A stretch of 64,000 nucleotides of DNA, from the NCBI GenBank assembly GCA_019912965.1, contig JAIOHM010000205.1, positions 62,001 to 126,000 of the forward strand, written 5' to 3'. Every line of letters starts with the position of its first letter. The first letter of the stretch is position 1. Shown here piece by piece: positions 12,507 to 19,548 of the stretch. Under the pieces are notes generated by a model. It saw only the letters and a list, made by a program, of their open reading frames with translations. It searched no databases and was not told the DNA's origin. Source of the stretch: Anaerolineae bacterium. GTDB lineage: Bacteria; Chloroflexota; Anaerolineae; Aggregatilineales; Phototrophicaceae. The translations under genes and the position numbers were made by a program.

Positions 12507-15359
12507 TTGGTATCGAACGTGACACGACTCAATCCAACACCAGAAATCATCGAAAGCATTTTAACCCGCGTCCCCGAAGGCTTCATTCGTTACGACACCC
12601 TTTGCCAGCGCGTGAAACTGGATAGAAACATCCGCGACACGCTGGTGAATGGCAAAATTGCCTATGATGGCGATTGGTGGTACGACACCACCCGTTTAAC
12701 ATTGGAACAAGCACGCGAATATCGCCGTTGGGCACGTCCCATCTTTCCGGAGATGGATGCTAAAGGTGTCTTTGCAGAAATTCCTATCCCGGAACGTATT
12801 GCCCAGCGTGAAGTCCGGGTCTATGAATCGGGTGATCCATCATCTGCACGACAGGTACTGACGGCGTTAAATGCTGCTCTGGGCTATGCAAAACCCGATG
12901 ATTTGTGCATCACCCCGGATGACCGTAAAGCCCTGAATTATCTATTGGATGTCGGCGAACTCCGCAAATTCGATGGACTAATCTTCGACCCCCTCCATGT
13001 CGGCAGCAAAACGATGCGTCATCTGGCAGCGCAGCACCGCCTCGCCCCGGCGCGGGAGCAGCTTGTCGAACTGCTCGAATCGTTGCCCGGTTGTGCCGCG
13101 CCACAGGCAGATTTAATCATTCGTTTTGGCAGTCCAGTCATGAACGAGCTGTTGGGAACGGGCGAGTTCAAACTGTTTCAGATACCCGGCACGCGCAAAG
13201 GCCAGACACTTGGATGGGTACGGTTGGCAAGTGCCGATCCACAAATCGCCCAGCAGGTCGCCAACGAAAACGTCATGAATTCGTGGGATAAACTGCTCAC
13301 AGTCTGTGGCGATCTTATCCGTCCCGGCGCGCGCGATGGCAAAAAAGCCCGCATGAAAGTCATCGCCCGTACCTATACGGTAAGCAATGCCGCCAAACGC
13401 ATCGGCGTCCGCCAGCGCACATTGGAACAGGCCATTACCGAAGGCCGAATCGAAGCCTTTGACGATCCTGAAGGGGTAACCCGCCTGCCTGCCGATGCGG
13501 TAGAAGCCGCTTTCAGCAATCCCGAATATGCGGAACATATCACAGCATACGAAACCCTGACCACCCGTGACATTTCTATCGTGGTCGAGATGAGTTATTC
13601 AACCGTGCGGCGGCGTTTACAAAAAGCTGGATTTAGCCGAAATGACCCACGATGGGGACAGGTGCGCGGACGCTGGAATCTGCCGGATACCTATCACGAA
13701 TTCCGCGCTATTCTGAAGCAAAAACTGGACGAATGGCACACGCAGCGCGAAACCGAATCGGCGGAACAGCGCCGCGAGATTGAAGAACAACGCCGCATCC
13801 AGAGTGAAATGCACGATGAATTGCGGGCACGGTTAGTCGCTTCCTTCCCCACCTGGCAGAATGATGGCCGCATTGACCAACGCATTTATCTGCGCGTCGG
13901 CCCGCCCAATAGTGGCAAGACCCACCGGGCACTGGAAGCATTAGTCGCGGCAGGCAGCGGGTGGTATCTCGCACCGTTACGCCTGCTGGCATTCGAGATT
14001 TTTGACCGTCTGAATACGCAGGGGGTTCGCTGCAACCTGCTGACGGGTGAAGAATTCATCCCGGTCGATGGCGCAACTTTCACCGCTGCTACCGTGGAGA
14101 TGTTTAACCCCGGTCAAAGCGGCGAATGTGTGGTGATTGACGAAGCCCAAATGCTGGCTGACCCGGATCGCGGTTGGGCATGGACGCGCGCACTGATGGA
14201 AGCCGAATCGCCGGAAATTCATGTGCTCGGCCCGGCAACGGCTCAGGAGTTGATTGAGCGTATGGCAAGCTCTGCCGCCATCCCATTGGAAATCGTGGAG
14301 CATGACCGCCTCGGCCCGATTCAGATTGCCGATCATCATTGGCCGCTGCCGGAAATTCCCCAACGAACTATTCTGGTAGCTTTCTCCCGTGCAATGGTAC
14401 TCAGTCTGAAGACCGAATTGGAGAAGATGAAACGCCGGGTCTCGGTGGTTTATGGCAACCTGCCGCCGGAAGTCCGCCGCAAGCAAGCCGAACGTTTCGC
14501 CACAGGTGAAACCGATGTCTGTGTAGCAACCGACGCTGTTGGCATGGGGCTGAACCTGCCTGCTGATTATGTGTGCTTTTACGAAGTCGAAAAGTACGAT
14601 GGTCGCACCACTCGTCCCCTGACTCCAGCAGAAGTCCAGCAAATTGGCGGACGTGCTGGACGCTTTGGCCTTTCCACAATCGGCGAAATCGGTGCCACCA
14701 ACAAACACGATCTCAAATTCTTGCGGAAGGTGTATTACGAAGCCGCCCAATCGCTGACTCATGCGCGTGTTGCGCCAACCGTAGCAGATTTGGAGATGAT
14801 TCCGGGTACACTGGCGGACAAACTGCGCCAGTGGTCGCTGTTGCAATCCATCCCGGAATCGTTACGAGGTGCGATCAAAACAGCCGATATGGCCGAACGC
14901 ATCGAACTGGCGCAAATGCTGACCGACCGTGAAGTGAAACTGTTGGGTCTGGAAGCCGCGCTCAAGCTGGTGAACGCTCCCGCGCGCGTCAGCAGCCGCC
15001 CCTACTGGTATCGCTGCGCCCGCGCCATCCTGACCGATAAAGAAATGCCTTTACCGCCCGTTGCCCCGCGCGAAATCACCAACACCATTGAACTCGAAAG
15101 CATCGAACTTTCAGTAGCCTGTTCAGATATTTACCTGTGGTTGGCTAATCGGCGGGAATTCAAGTCGTTTGGACAGCACGAACCAGAGGTGCGCGAAATG
15201 CGCGGCGAGTGGTCAATGCAGATCGACGGAGCTTTGCTGCGGCGCATCAACACGGCACGGCGCTGTGCCCGCTGTGGGGTACCCTTGCCGCTCAAGCATC
15301 GCTATTCTATCTGCAATAACTGCTACTACGGTAATGGCCGCGACGACGACTGGCGCTAA
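12507..15359 (+). CDS. SUV3-type DEAD/DExH RNA helicase with helix-turn-helix-like N-terminal extension
   Basis: A 950-residue protein. The core (about residues 455-760) is a superfamily-2 helicase closest to mitochondrial SUV3: P-loop GPPNSGKTH near 465, Walker B VIDEAQ near 541, VATDAVGMGLNLP and QIGGRAGRFG near 711. SUV3 unwinds RNA for a 3'-5' exonuclease. The N-terminal ~450 residues are unusual: segments NAAKRIGVRQRTLEQAI (~293) and ISIVVEMSYSTVRRRLQ (~355) look like MerR/excisionase helix-turn-helices, and a charged coiled coil follows (~405-450). The C-terminus has a four-Cys zinc ribbon (CARC and CNNC). Start is TTG 12507 or GTG 12519. It stands alone between two minus-strand genes. 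Confidence 0.85.
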   Translation: MVSNVTRLNPTPEIIESILTRVPEGFIRYDTLCQRVKLDRNIRDTLVNGKIAYDGDWWYDTTRLTLEQAREYRRWARPIFPEMDAKGVFAEIPIPERIAQREVRVYESGDPSSARQVLTALNAALGYAKPDDLCITPDDRKALNYLLDVGELRKFDGLIFDPLHVGSKTMRHLAAQHRLAPAREQLVELLESLPGCAAPQADLIIRFGSPVMNELLGTGEFKLFQIPGTRKGQTLGWVRLASADPQIAQQVANENVMNSWDKLLTVCGDLIRPGARDGKKARMKVIARTYTVSNAAKRIGVRQRTLEQAITEGRIEAFDDPEGVTRLPADAVEAAFSNPEYAEHITAYETLTTRDISIVVEMSYSTVRRRLQKAGFSRNDPRWGQVRGRWNLPDTYHEFRAILKQKLDEWHTQRETESAEQRREIEEQRRIQSEMHDELRARLVASFPTWQNDGRIDQRIYLRVGPPNSGKTHRALEALVAAGSGWYLAPLRLLAFEIFDRLNTQGVRCNLLTGEEFIPVDGATFTAATVEMFNPGQSGECVVIDEAQMLADPDRGWAWTRALMEAESPEIHVLGPATAQELIERMASSAAIPLEIVEHDRLGPIQIADHHWPLPEIPQRTILVAFSRAMVLSLKTELEKMKRRVSVVYGNLPPEVRRKQAERFATGETDVCVATDAVGMGLNLPADYVCFYEVEKYDGRTTRPLTPAEVQQIGGRAGRFGLSTIGEIGATNKHDLKFLRKVYYEAAQSLTHARVAPTVADLEMIPGTLADKLRQWSLLQSIPESLRGAIKTADMAERIELAQMLTDREVKLLGLEAALKLVNAPARVSSRPYWYRCARAILTDKEMPLPPVAPREITNTIELESIELSVACSDIYLWLANRREFKSFGQHEPEVREMRGEWSMQIDGALLRRINTARRCARCGVPLPLKHRYSICNNCYYGNGRDDDWR

Positions 15360-15396: not shown

Positions 15397-17373
15397 CTAC
15401 ACCCCTTCAAATTCCAGATACTCATCCCGCACAATATCGGTCGCCGCGATGCCCAGAATCTTGAACATTTCCTGAATCCGGTTCGCTTTATTTTCCGCAT
15501 CTTTAGCTGACCATGTACGGCTCTTGATCTCGACAAAAGTATCCGCGAGTTCCGGCTTCAGCACCCGGTCAAGATTCACATAAAACAGCACCCCTTGATA
15601 CAGAATGTGCCAGCGGCGGCGGTCTTTGTGCAGTTCGCGTTCATGCTGCGGTTGGAAATATTCCCGGTAGAAACGCAGCGGGCGATCTGCCTTAGAGATA
15701 AACCGTGAGTGCGAAAGCAGCACTGCCGAATTAAATTCACGTTCTTTGGTCGGCATCGTGAATGTCAAACGACTGCGTACCGACTGCACCTCGCCCTTCG
15801 CATCCAGCATATCATCCTCACGGTAGCGCACCCGCCCCTTCGATTCGTCGTCAAACAGGAAATAGGTGTCGTACTGGCGATAGCGGATTTCCTTCAAAAC
15901 CTCAACATCTGGATGATCGAGCAGTTTTTGAATCATGTCGCTGTCGCGGATGATGACCTTCGCCTGTACTTCAAAACTCTCACCGCGTTCGATGCCGCCG
16001 ATCACCAACAGCTTGCTCAAAATATCCTTCTCGCGGGCGTGCAGGAATGCATCAACTTTCAGTGCGTAAGCCTCAGCCTCTTTCAAAAGTTCTGCCTCAT
16101 TCACCGTCAGCAGTTGGCGGTCACGCATTAACCACTGCCCGTTGCAAATTACGTTCAAAACATCCGTGCTTTTGCTGGCATAAACCAGACGCGAATAAAC
16201 TGCATTCAGGTCGCGGTTGAACTGCGGCATATTGTGCGCTGGACGTGCATCGACCGTAATCACATCCGCCAGTTTGCCCACTTCCAAACTGCCCGTGACA
16301 TCGCCCAAGAATAAGGCTTCTGCCCCTTGCCGTGTCGCCATCAATAGAGCAGTCCGTGCCGGGAGTGCCGTTGGGTCGTTAGCCGCTGTTTTCGCCAGAA
16401 TGGCTGCCAACCGCACTTCCTCGAACATATCCAGATCGTTGTTGCTGGCTGGCCCATCCGTGCCGATGCCCACCGTCAATCCTGCTTCCAGCATATCCAT
16501 CACTGGTGCAATGCCAGAAGCCAATTTCAGGTTGCTCGTCGGGCAGTGAGCGACCGTTGTATCATGCTCATGCAAAGTATGGATTTCAGTAGGCGTCACA
16601 TGAACGCAGTGTGCCGCCAGCACTTTTGCACCCAGCAAACCCGCTTCTTCTACCCACGGCACCACCGTCTGTCCATACCATTCAACGCTGTCGTCCTGTT
16701 CCAGCTTGGTTTCCCCGATGTGGATAAGAATCGGCACATCATATTTTTTCGCCAGCTCAGCACAGTCTTTTAAAATATCCTGCGTAGTCGAATACGGTGC
16801 ATGAGGCGCAACCGCTGGCGTAATCAGCGGATGCCCTTTCCATTCCTCAATAAATTTCGCCGTATATTCGAGACTGTTTTCGTACGTTTCAGCATCCGGC
16901 GTCGGGAACTTCAGCACACTCTGCCCCAATACTCCGCGCAAACCGGCTTGCACCGTCGCTTTCGCCACATCCGACTCAAAATAGTACATATCCGCGAAAG
17001 CCGTAATCCCGCTGCGAATCATCTCCGCACACGCCAGACTCGTCCCCAATCGGCAGAATTCCGGTGTAACGAATTCACGCTCGGTTGGCATCACATACCC
17101 CATTAGCCACACGTCCAGCCGCAGATCATCTGCCAGACCGCGCAAAAGCGTCATCGGCACATGGGTGTGCGCGTTCACCAGACCCGGCATAATGTACTGC
17201 CCCGCGCACGAAACCACCCGGTCAGATTCGTATCGCGCAGCAATATCTGCGCTCGAACCCACTGCCACAATTTTCTCTGCCTGAATAGCAACCGCGCCAT
17301 CGTGTATAATATCAAACTGCTGGTTCATGGTGACGACGATGCCGCCAGTTAGAATGGTATCGACCCGTTCCAT
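15397..17373 (-). CDS. Amidohydrolase (MTA/SAH deaminase-like) fused to a CYTH domain
   Basis: A 658-residue fusion. Residues 1-~435 are an Atz/Trz-type amidohydrolase close to 5'-methylthioadenosine/S-adenosylhomocysteine deaminase (MtaD): metal ligands H69 and H71 in NAHTH, the His in HIGET, the His in AAHCVH, and the Asp in GTDGPASNND. Residues ~460-658 look like a CYTH (CyaB/thiamine-triphosphatase) domain: E468-V-Q-A-K472 in the place of the ExExK signature, then VRYRED, R-rich strands and FVEIKSRTWSAKDAE. The second Glu of ExExK is Gln here. AAGGAGG lies 6 bases before ATG 17373. MtaD enzymes normally end at ~430 residues; I do not know this fusion as a described architecture. Deaminase role is likely; CYTH role unknown. 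Confidence 0.8.
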   Translation of the reverse strand: MERVDTILTGGIVVTMNQQFDIIHDGAVAIQAEKIVAVGSSADIAARYESDRVVSCAGQYIMPGLVNAHTHVPMTLLRGLADDLRLDVWLMGYVMPTEREFVTPEFCRLGTSLACAEMIRSGITAFADMYYFESDVAKATVQAGLRGVLGQSVLKFPTPDAETYENSLEYTAKFIEEWKGHPLITPAVAPHAPYSTTQDILKDCAELAKKYDVPILIHIGETKLEQDDSVEWYGQTVVPWVEEAGLLGAKVLAAHCVHVTPTEIHTLHEHDTTVAHCPTSNLKLASGIAPVMDMLEAGLTVGIGTDGPASNNDLDMFEEVRLAAILAKTAANDPTALPARTALLMATRQGAEALFLGDVTGSLEVGKLADVITVDARPAHNMPQFNRDLNAVYSRLVYASKSTDVLNVICNGQWLMRDRQLLTVNEAELLKEAEAYALKVDAFLHAREKDILSKLLVIGGIERGESFEVQAKVIIRDSDMIQKLLDHPDVEVLKEIRYRQYDTYFLFDDESKGRVRYREDDMLDAKGEVQSVRSRLTFTMPTKEREFNSAVLLSHSRFISKADRPLRFYREYFQPQHERELHKDRRRWHILYQGVLFYVNLDRVLKPELADTFVEIKSRTWSAKDAENKANRIQEMFKILGIAATDIVRDEYLEFEGV

Positions 17374-17460: not shown

Positions 17461-19548
17461 ATGCGTAACCGTCTGCGCTTACGCTTATACCATCTGCACA
17501 TGCTGGAAGCCGCACTGATCGGCCTTTTTTTCGTCAGCGGCATCCGCTATCTGATCGGCGCGATTTACAGTCGCACAGGCGGCGCATCCATCACCCTCAG
17601 CCTCGACCCCGCCAGCATTCCCGCTGGAACACCCGGCGTCGTCGAGACCGCTGTTCTGACCAACGAAATCAGCTTTTTGGTCTATATGCTTGCTTTACCC
17701 CTGCTGGGGCTGATTTTGGGACGCTTTCGCATCTTGAGTGTGGTCGCTGTGGTGCTGATTGCGGCTGGTCGTGCCTTGATGATTGCCGAAACCAGCGTTA
17801 CACCGCTGACCGCCGCCGCGATGGTTTTGGGCGGTGGATTACTTTATCTGGCGATGCTTGTCCGCGAACGCGCCCAAACCCTGCCCTATTTCTTTGTGAT
17901 GGGCATCGGTGTTGATCAAGTCTTCCGCGCCGTTGGCAACACATTAGACCCCTCATGGTCACCCGCTTATTTCAACATCCAAGCCATCCTCTCAGCCGCC
18001 GCTGTTTTATTGAGCATCCTCACGCTGGTTGGCACGAGCCGTGCAGTCCGCGCCAGAAACGAAGAATCCAATGTCACACTCGACTACGGTTTAATGCCCT
18101 TCTGGGGCGGCATTGGTTTGGGTGGATTGCTATTTCTGGAATTGGCGCTGCTCGGAACGCCCAATGCCATAGCCGGACGTGCGGATATTGACTACACGAA
18201 CTTTGCGCCCTTCATCACATTGGCGACTCTGCTCCCCTTGATTCCTTGGGTACGTCGTCAAGCCGCCGCCACCATTGGCCTGTTCGATAAAGGTTTACGT
18301 GGTTGGGCATGGATGCTCATCATCGCCCTCCTGATCGTTTTCGGGACGCGCTTTCAGGGCATCCCGGCGGGCATTGCGCTGGTCGTCGCCCAATTCGCTG
18401 CCAGCATGTTATGGTGGTGGCTCGTTCGCCCGCGTGCCGAAAAAGAACGCCAATTTACCGCCCTGTGGCTGGTGATCGGCGTCATCATTTTTGCCGTGCT
18501 GCTGGCTGCCGATAATTTCACTTACGAATACGCCTATGTGCAGAACATGGCTCCCGAACTCGCCTTCCTTGATACCATCATCCCGCCCTTCTTGCGTGGA
18601 TTCCGGGGTTTAGGGTTAGGTGTTTTGCTCCTGAGTGCTTTCTTCGCTGCCCTGCCAATGGTGCAGACTCAGCGCCGGATTCCGTGGAGCGGCGGCACAG
18701 GTTTACAATCCCTGTTCGGTCTGCTCCTGACCGCTGGCCTGAGCATTGGCGTAGCTGTAGCCGTCCGTCCACCGTTGATCGCTGGTGTGCGCGATGTCGA
18801 AACCATCCGTATCGGCACTTACAACATTCACGGCGGATTCAACGAATTTTATCACTACGATCTGGAAGCCATCGCCCGCACCATTCAGCAAAGCGGCGCG
18901 AATGTGGTGTTGTTACAGCAGGTCGAAGGTGGACGTTTAACCAGTTTCGGCGTCGATCAACCTTTATGGTTAGCCCGTCGTCTCGGCATGGATACCCGCT
19001 TCTTCCCGACCAACGAAGGTTTACAGGGTTTAGCCGTCCTATCCAATGTCGAAATCGTCTTTGATGATGGCGTTTTGCTGCCCAGCGGCGGCAATCAGGC
19101 AGGCTTACAGCGTGTGCAGATTCGCCCCGATCAGGGTGTGATTACCCTCTACAATACCCGGCTGGAATTTTTGCTGGAAGCCGGCGACGGACGCACGGTT
19201 GAGGAACAGGAACAGGAACAGCAGCGTCAGCTCAACGAGATTTTCACCATCCTCAGCAGCCGCCACCCGGACGGCAACTTAGGGCGCATGGTCATCGGCG
19301 GCACATTCAACAACATCCCGACTTCACCCCTTGCCGATCAGATGCGCGCTGCCGGATTTGTAGACCCTTTAGCGGGCTTACCCATCGAATTGAACTCGAC
19401 CCTGTGGCGCATCGGCTATCCGCAGGTACAGTTGGATTATCTATGGGTATGGCGGCGTTCGCTGGTTTCGCTCGGTGCACAGACCATCAACACCGCAGCT
19501 TCCGATCATCGCATGGCCGTCATCGAAACCCTCATCCGCCCGCAGTAA
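17461..19548 (+). CDS. Multi-pass membrane protein with degenerate endonuclease/exonuclease/phosphatase domain
   Basis: A 695-residue protein with ~12 membrane helices (residues ~10-435) and an outer C-terminal domain (~450-695) of the EEP fold. The fold landmarks are clear: N455 in TYNIHGG, a LLQQV strand, NTRL, GGTFNN, LDYLWV and the closing S681-D682-H683-R684. Three residues that EEP enzymes need are changed: the metal-binding Glu of LQEV is Gln487, the His of NTHL is Arg567 and the Asp of GDFN is Thr615. So the domain probably binds rather than cleaves. GGGAG about 9 bases before ATG 17461 supports the start. It is divergent from the amidohydrolase gene; no partner genes are evident. Confidence 0.75.
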   Translation: MRNRLRLRLYHLHMLEAALIGLFFVSGIRYLIGAIYSRTGGASITLSLDPASIPAGTPGVVETAVLTNEISFLVYMLALPLLGLILGRFRILSVVAVVLIAAGRALMIAETSVTPLTAAAMVLGGGLLYLAMLVRERAQTLPYFFVMGIGVDQVFRAVGNTLDPSWSPAYFNIQAILSAAAVLLSILTLVGTSRAVRARNEESNVTLDYGLMPFWGGIGLGGLLFLELALLGTPNAIAGRADIDYTNFAPFITLATLLPLIPWVRRQAAATIGLFDKGLRGWAWMLIIALLIVFGTRFQGIPAGIALVVAQFAASMLWWWLVRPRAEKERQFTALWLVIGVIIFAVLLAADNFTYEYAYVQNMAPELAFLDTIIPPFLRGFRGLGLGVLLLSAFFAALPMVQTQRRIPWSGGTGLQSLFGLLLTAGLSIGVAVAVRPPLIAGVRDVETIRIGTYNIHGGFNEFYHYDLEAIARTIQQSGANVVLLQQVEGGRLTSFGVDQPLWLARRLGMDTRFFPTNEGLQGLAVLSNVEIVFDDGVLLPSGGNQAGLQRVQIRPDQGVITLYNTRLEFLLEAGDGRTVEEQEQEQQRQLNEIFTILSSRHPDGNLGRMVIGGTFNNIPTSPLADQMRAAGFVDPLAGLPIELNSTLWRIGYPQVQLDYLWVWRRSLVSLGAQTINTAASDHRMAVIETLIRPQ

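Follow-up and report, generated by a model that had tools for sequence, protein, structure and literature searches.

A Chloroflexota deaminase of the adenosine/MTA/SAH group fused to a variant CYTH domain: a possible phosphate-sensing enzyme

The window, a 64,000-nucleotide stretch of DNA from an Anaerolineae bacterium, encodes on its minus strand (15397..17373) a protein of 658 aa with an ATG start, in which a complete nucleoside-deaminase domain is followed by a variant CYTH, or triphosphate-tunnel, domain. This architecture is real, conserved and consistently modified in its tunnel, and is undescribed as far as the open-licence literature shows, a search which returned no account of a CYTH-amidohydrolase fusion and which does not amount to proof of novelty. 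We propose, with a probability of about one half, that the protein is a deaminase with a built-in sensor of triphosphate or polyphosphate. The initial annotation, made from sequence alone, had placed a deaminase and a CYTH domain in a single protein at exactly these coordinates, giving no strand; the open reading frame bears this out, and each of its landmark motifs was located (EVQAK at residues 468-472, VRYRED at 515-520 and FVEIKSRTWS at 613-622). To our knowledge, CYTH proteins are found in every domain of life, but little is known of their physiological role. As the fusion is conserved and the reaction of its enzyme half can be tested, the deaminase rate would offer a direct read-out of the tunnel ligand.

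Architecture and distribution of the fusion

The N-terminal domain (residues 1-440; 16054..17373, minus strand, as are all features of the protein given below) is a complete deaminase of the amidohydrolase superfamily, belonging to the adenosine/MTA/SAH group (COG0402). It matches PF01979 at E=4.9e-77 over residues 1-440 in a Pfam profile search, and its nearest solved structures, by both sequence and fold, are 4dzh, 4f0r (with MTA), 4f0s (with inosine) and 4gbd, at about 37-41% identity and Z about 57-58. Among these, 4dzh and 4f0r are each about 40% identical to the domain, and 4dzh superposes at Z 58.4 and 1.4 A over 437 residues. The metal and active-site set, including the glutamate of HxxE, is invariant in an alignment of 102 fused sequences: the metal ligands H69-x-H71 (17161..17169) and H218 (16720..16722), the catalytic E221 which follows H218 (16711-16713), H255 (16609..16611) and D306 of the GTDG motif (16456..16458). 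A helical linker, evident in the secondary structure of the full model, spans residues 441-464 (15982..16053) and leads into the CYTH domain at residues about 465-656 (15406..15981), which was delimited from Pfam, relatives, the AlphaFold2 fold and hhalign.

That the fusion might be an assembly join of two genes was considered and excluded, as the same full-length protein recurs in independent genomes, and the fusion proposed in the initial annotation is genuine. Full-length fusions of about 655-670 aa were recovered from most of the 61 relatives searched. The CYTH part of the fusion is present in 182 of 298 sampled genomes of the class (about 61%) and in 29 genomes of the phylum outside the class, in both cases nearly always within an open frame of at least 650 aa. 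In a search of 84,980 species genomes, 203 of the 226 matching stretches encode a relative, the best 80 being nearly all titled Chloroflexi or Anaerolineae, while plasmids and viral contigs yielded no fusion. No CYTH-only reading frame was found among the fetched loci, where incomplete copies run off contig ends. When 30 fused and 20 stand-alone deaminases from the phylum were placed in one tree, the fused sequences fell on one side of a branch with support of 100/99. For the sequences tested, this is consistent with a single fusion, after which both domains were inherited together. The fusion is an ancient Chloroflexota protein, long conserved.

Among neighbors at 106 loci no conserved operon partner was found; the most frequent neighbor, at 53/106 loci, is an upstream, divergent gene for a membrane protein with an Exo_endo_phos domain. 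In the window this type is represented by 17461-19548 (plus strand), which encodes 695 aa, appears by eye to be a multi-pass membrane protein, and has a C-terminal Exo_endo_phos domain. Downstream of the fusion and convergent with it is a gene for a Suv3-like helicase, a family that adjoins the fusion in 16/106 loci; the window copy (12507-15359, plus strand; 950 aa) has a Suv3-type DEXQ helicase domain, a Helicase_C domain and a weak HTH_17-like segment, and is bacterial.

Fold and tunnel residues of the CYTH domain

The window protein matches PF01928 (CYTH) in Pfam at E=0.0015 and 18.9 bits, under the curated cut-off of 23.2, and a family search of its own genome did not report the domain. 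Among relatives, 33 of 43 match CYTH (E up to 1), with a best E of 7.7e-8, and several pass the cut-off in whole-genome searches, reaching 34.6 bits; these include fused copies from other families of the phylum. Comparison by hhalign with 18 ordinary Chloroflexota CYTH proteins gave a probability of 96.4% and E 1.3e-9 when these were pooled, and only 6% and 28% for two sub-groups taken separately, while a search of PDB sequences with the CYTH profile returned no match. The predicted fold is the firmer evidence: an AlphaFold2 model of residues 439-658 (pLDDT 90.9) resembles CYTH/TTM structures with Z scores from 18.6 down to 13, led by 2een (Z 18.6, 2.2 A, 168 residues) and followed by 7nsd, 7ns9 and CyaB, each at Z 17, with a Foldseek probability of 1.00 for the matches listed, SaTTM among them. 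Together, these results bear out the CYTH assignment of the initial annotation in a qualified form, and the C-terminal part is best regarded as a diverged, variant CYTH homologue predicted to adopt the triphosphate-tunnel barrel, and not as a canonical member, given that the ExExK hallmark is incomplete; across the family this assignment is firm, whereas for the window protein taken singly the sequence match is marginal.

The fold matches also include the Med18/20 barrels of Mediator, which raises the alternative that the CYTH barrel is merely a structural or oligomerization element of the deaminase, as the CYTH folds of Mediator subunits are. The conservation pattern makes this quite improbable. 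The 102 aligned fused sequences (an effective number of 69.5 at 80% identity) drop to 35% identity between members in the CYTH part. Even so, 31 of the 191 positions of this domain are fully conserved, among them 11 of the 12 that were mapped to the TTM tunnel (hypergeometric p about 4e-9, a descriptive value, since the 12 were picked from the ordinary-CYTH alignment and published motifs with the conservation table already in view). Such conservation despite 35% identity places the tunnel under strong constraint, and many of the invariant residues are charged and line up with the tunnel, which a scaffold would not need.

Tunnel residues were mapped by sequence alignment and motifs, and those retained are E468, K472, D502, Y504, R516, R518, K583-x-R585, D602 and the metal-1 glutamate E615. 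In the hallmark segment E468-V-Q470-A-K472 (15958..15972), aligned to ExExK, E, Q and K are each present in 102/102, so that the glutamine noted in the initial annotation at the second glutamate is real and invariant. The DxY motif, mapped by motif to D502-T-Y504 (15862..15870), has D in 102/102 and Y in 96/102; the pair R516-Y-R518 (15820..15828), aligned with the phosphate-binding RxR, is invariant at both arginines, as are all three basic residues of the strand K583-x-R585-x-R587 (15613..15627), which aligns with K-x-R of ordinary CYTH proteins and matches K110-x-R112 of SaTTM. At the C-terminal metal motif, E615-I-K617 (15523..15531) aligns with ExE of ordinary CYTH proteins and has both E and K in 102/102; the change of the last glutamate to K617 is thus a second invariant substitution, one that the initial annotation had missed. 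The lysine of the LTYK strand is gone (T539 lies there), and R514, R587 and R619 add positive charge. Apart from DxY, ordinary CYTH proteins show nothing clearly equivalent to two near-invariant blocks, QYDTYF (500-505) and A-x(4)-RFYxEYF (562-573), the latter of which could be a ligand- or deaminase-contact element.

Work on related enzymes suggests what these changes may mean. In AtTTM3 and YgiF, metal 2 is bound by glutamates of an acidic patch and serves to activate the water that attacks, and the substrate is held by metal 1 together with basic residues (PMC4641920); mutation of Glu-4 in AtTTM3 strongly reduces tripolyphosphatase activity, and that of Glu-6 in YgiF impairs it (PMC4641920). 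In SaTTM, E5, E7 and E137 form the two-metal site and E7 and E135 bind metal 1, and the DxY motif positions a phosphate-bound water (PMC8233210). Mapped onto the fusion, these assignments indicate that the catalytic metal-2 site has been lost, and that the phosphate-binding arginines and lysines, the metal-1 glutamate and DxY have been kept. The occurrence of the same two substitutions in every member looks like a specific change, and not like decay. A standard TTM tri/polyphosphatase was rejected as a candidate on the basis of E-x-K in place of the C-terminal ExE in 102/102, though RxR, K-x-R and DxY are present. So too was a ThTPase: by the motif rules for ThTPases and class IV cyclases derived from SaTTM (PMC8233210), the aromatic residue of W/YxRxR is absent, and R514 occupies its position ahead of RxR in 98/102.

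The same rules bear on the link to cyclic-nucleotide chemistry suggested in the initial annotation, by which a class IV adenylyl cyclase would be coupled to a cAMP or adenosine deaminase as a make-and-break pair. This reading is barely credible even though CyaB structures rank high in the fold comparison (Z 17), as all three motifs of such cyclases, namely HFxxxxExExK, a small residue in place of the first arginine of RxR, and ExA (PMC8233210), are missing: E462-R463 stands for HF, R516 is kept, and the C-terminal motif is ExK rather than ExA. The suggested link therefore finds no support.

It is also very doubtful that the domain is a VTC-like phosphotransferase or polyphosphate-handling tunnel, having metal 1 only and basic residues where other TTMs have glutamates. 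In keeping with that idea, Vtc4p has metal site 1 and not site 2, and its acidic patch is basic (PMC4641920); Chloroflexota PF09359 proteins share, as read by eye, an E-x-K near their end; and R514, R587 and R619 supply extra positive charge to the fusion. Against it, no PF09359 match was listed for the 43 members scanned (E up to 1), the VTC proteins that were read have R-x-(D/E)-x-K as their first motif, as opposed to E-x-Q-x-K in the fusion, their S-K-Y-C motif is absent from the fusion, and the fusion has no membrane part. Vtc4p was not among the fold matches listed, which excludes nothing, and an attempt to use a Chloroflexota VTC protein as a bridge to a Vtc4p alignment gave no PDB sequence match. 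Separately, PF09359 proteins that resemble VTC-type polyphosphate polymerases are encoded by some Chloroflexota as well.

Deaminase substrate and the proposed phosphate sensor

The deaminase is MtaD/DadD-like; it misses the NCBIfam equivalog cut-offs (best 467.5 against 540 bits), so that library assigns it no single substrate. Genomic context offers a clue. An SAH hydrolase is encoded in 24/24 genomes tested, and the motif that distinguishes SAH-preferring hydrolases (HxTxE) from SIH-preferring ones (HxExK; PMC10978960) is HxTxE in all 21 that could be read, whether the fusion is present or absent. It therefore seems that the deaminase supplies no SIH hydrolase, and SAH-to-SIH salvage, a candidate we had considered, is left unsupported; indirectly, MTA, 5'-deoxyadenosine or adenosine are more likely substrates than S-adenosylhomocysteine. 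For most of these Chloroflexota SAH hydrolases the match to the AdoHcyase profile is split in two, and ~35 profile positions are missing.

In the mechanism that we favor, the two domains probably serve one reaction. The N-terminal domain would be an active metal-dependent deaminase of adenine nucleosides, with 5'-deoxyadenosine, methylthioadenosine and adenosine as candidate substrates, and the CYTH tunnel would bind a Mg2+-complexed, triphosphate-like anion (ATP, tripolyphosphate or polyphosphate) via metal site 1. The bound anion would not undergo standard hydrolysis, because the water-activating second metal site is replaced by glutamine and lysine; instead, its binding may switch or tune the deaminase, such that the loss of adenine nucleosides to inosine forms would follow the phosphate or energy state of the cell. 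The invariant deaminase residues, the CYTH fold, the constraint on the tunnel, the invariance of Q470 and K617, the need for metal-2 glutamates in catalysis by AtTTM3 and YgiF (PMC4641920), the joint travel of the two domains and the ordinary CYTH proteins encoded by most of the same genomes all speak for this proposal, and the suggestion in the initial annotation that the domain may sense rather than cleave gains from the replacement of a second metal-2 ligand alongside Q470. Ligand binding, the identity of the ligand, its allosteric coupling to the deaminase and the deaminase substrate are the parts of the proposal that we infer. Counting against it, pathway support from a conserved operon partner is absent, and loss of the metal-2 glutamates is no proof of inactivity, AtTTM1/2 being enzymes that use pyrophosphate in their absence (PMC8233210).

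A different function for the same tunnel could lie in the metabolism of SAM. Tripolyphosphate is a by-product of SAM synthetase and cobalamin adenosyltransferase, and 5'-deoxyadenosine and MTA are other by-products of the use of SAM and adenosyl-cobalamin. The CYTH domain might thus still be an enzyme, a phosphohydrolase that works with one metal, lets Lys617 stand in for metal 2, and disposes of tripolyphosphate beside a deaminase that disposes of 5'-deoxyadenosine or MTA. Such paired removal of by-products has a metabolic logic, and would fit the full conservation of the binding residues and the near-full conservation of DxY, as well as the finding that pyrophosphate is used by AtTTM1/2 even though both ExExK and ExE are absent from them (PMC8233210). 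We nevertheless consider it unlikely, as two metal-2 ligands are replaced, at a site where the Glu-4 and Glu-6 changes noted above are damaging (PMC4641920), and as most genomes tested have an ordinary CYTH protein for the tripolyphosphate task. Most genomes checked encode such a protein with both ExExK and ExE, which makes it plausible that the fused domain is an extra, specialized and non-standard copy.

Returning to the sensor proposal, the fusion may represent an undescribed class of allosteric nucleoside deaminase, in which a CYTH tunnel that has fixedly lost its catalytic metal site senses a signal rich in phosphate, be it polyphosphate, tripolyphosphate, ATP or an alarmone, and governs how fast adenine nucleosides are deaminated in much of Chloroflexota. 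This is a broader claim, which we advance tentatively and at somewhat less than even odds. If true, it would give bacteria a clear example of a CYTH domain acting as a sensor, and would tie the salvage of SAM by-products or adenine to the cellular phosphate state.

Comparison with known systems

The fusion resembles archaeal-type TTM/CYTH proteins (SaTTM, 7NS9; PH1819, 2EEN) in its predicted tunnel barrel (Z 17-18.6), in RxR, K-x-R, DxY and the metal-1 glutamate, and in the first glutamate and the lysine of ExExK. Unlike them, it has glutamine at the second glutamate of ExExK, ExK for ExE and no lysine of LTYK; its tunnel has extra arginines and sits C-terminal to a deaminase. With the VTC polyphosphate polymerase domain (Vtc4p, PF09359) it shares a missing metal-2 site and a basic tunnel (PMC4641920) and, as read in Chloroflexota proteins, an E-x-K near the end, whereas its first motif differs, it has no VTC profile match, and it is a soluble protein with a deaminase. 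The deaminase half has the entire 440-residue fold and the active-site residues of the MTA/SAH/adenosine deaminases (4f0r/4f0s of Chromobacterium violaceum, 4gbd/4dyk of Pseudomonas aeruginosa, TM0936 and Methanocaldococcus DadD); these known enzymes stop at about residue 440, where the fusion protein continues into CYTH, and within the phylum the fused copies form a clade apart from stand-alone deaminases. As in CYTH-CHAD (YgiF) and the kinase-TTM proteins (AtTTM1/2), the latter also without acidic metal motifs (PMC8233210), the CYTH domain lies within a multi-domain protein; in contrast to those fusions, its partner here is a nucleoside deaminase, with CYTH at the C-terminus.
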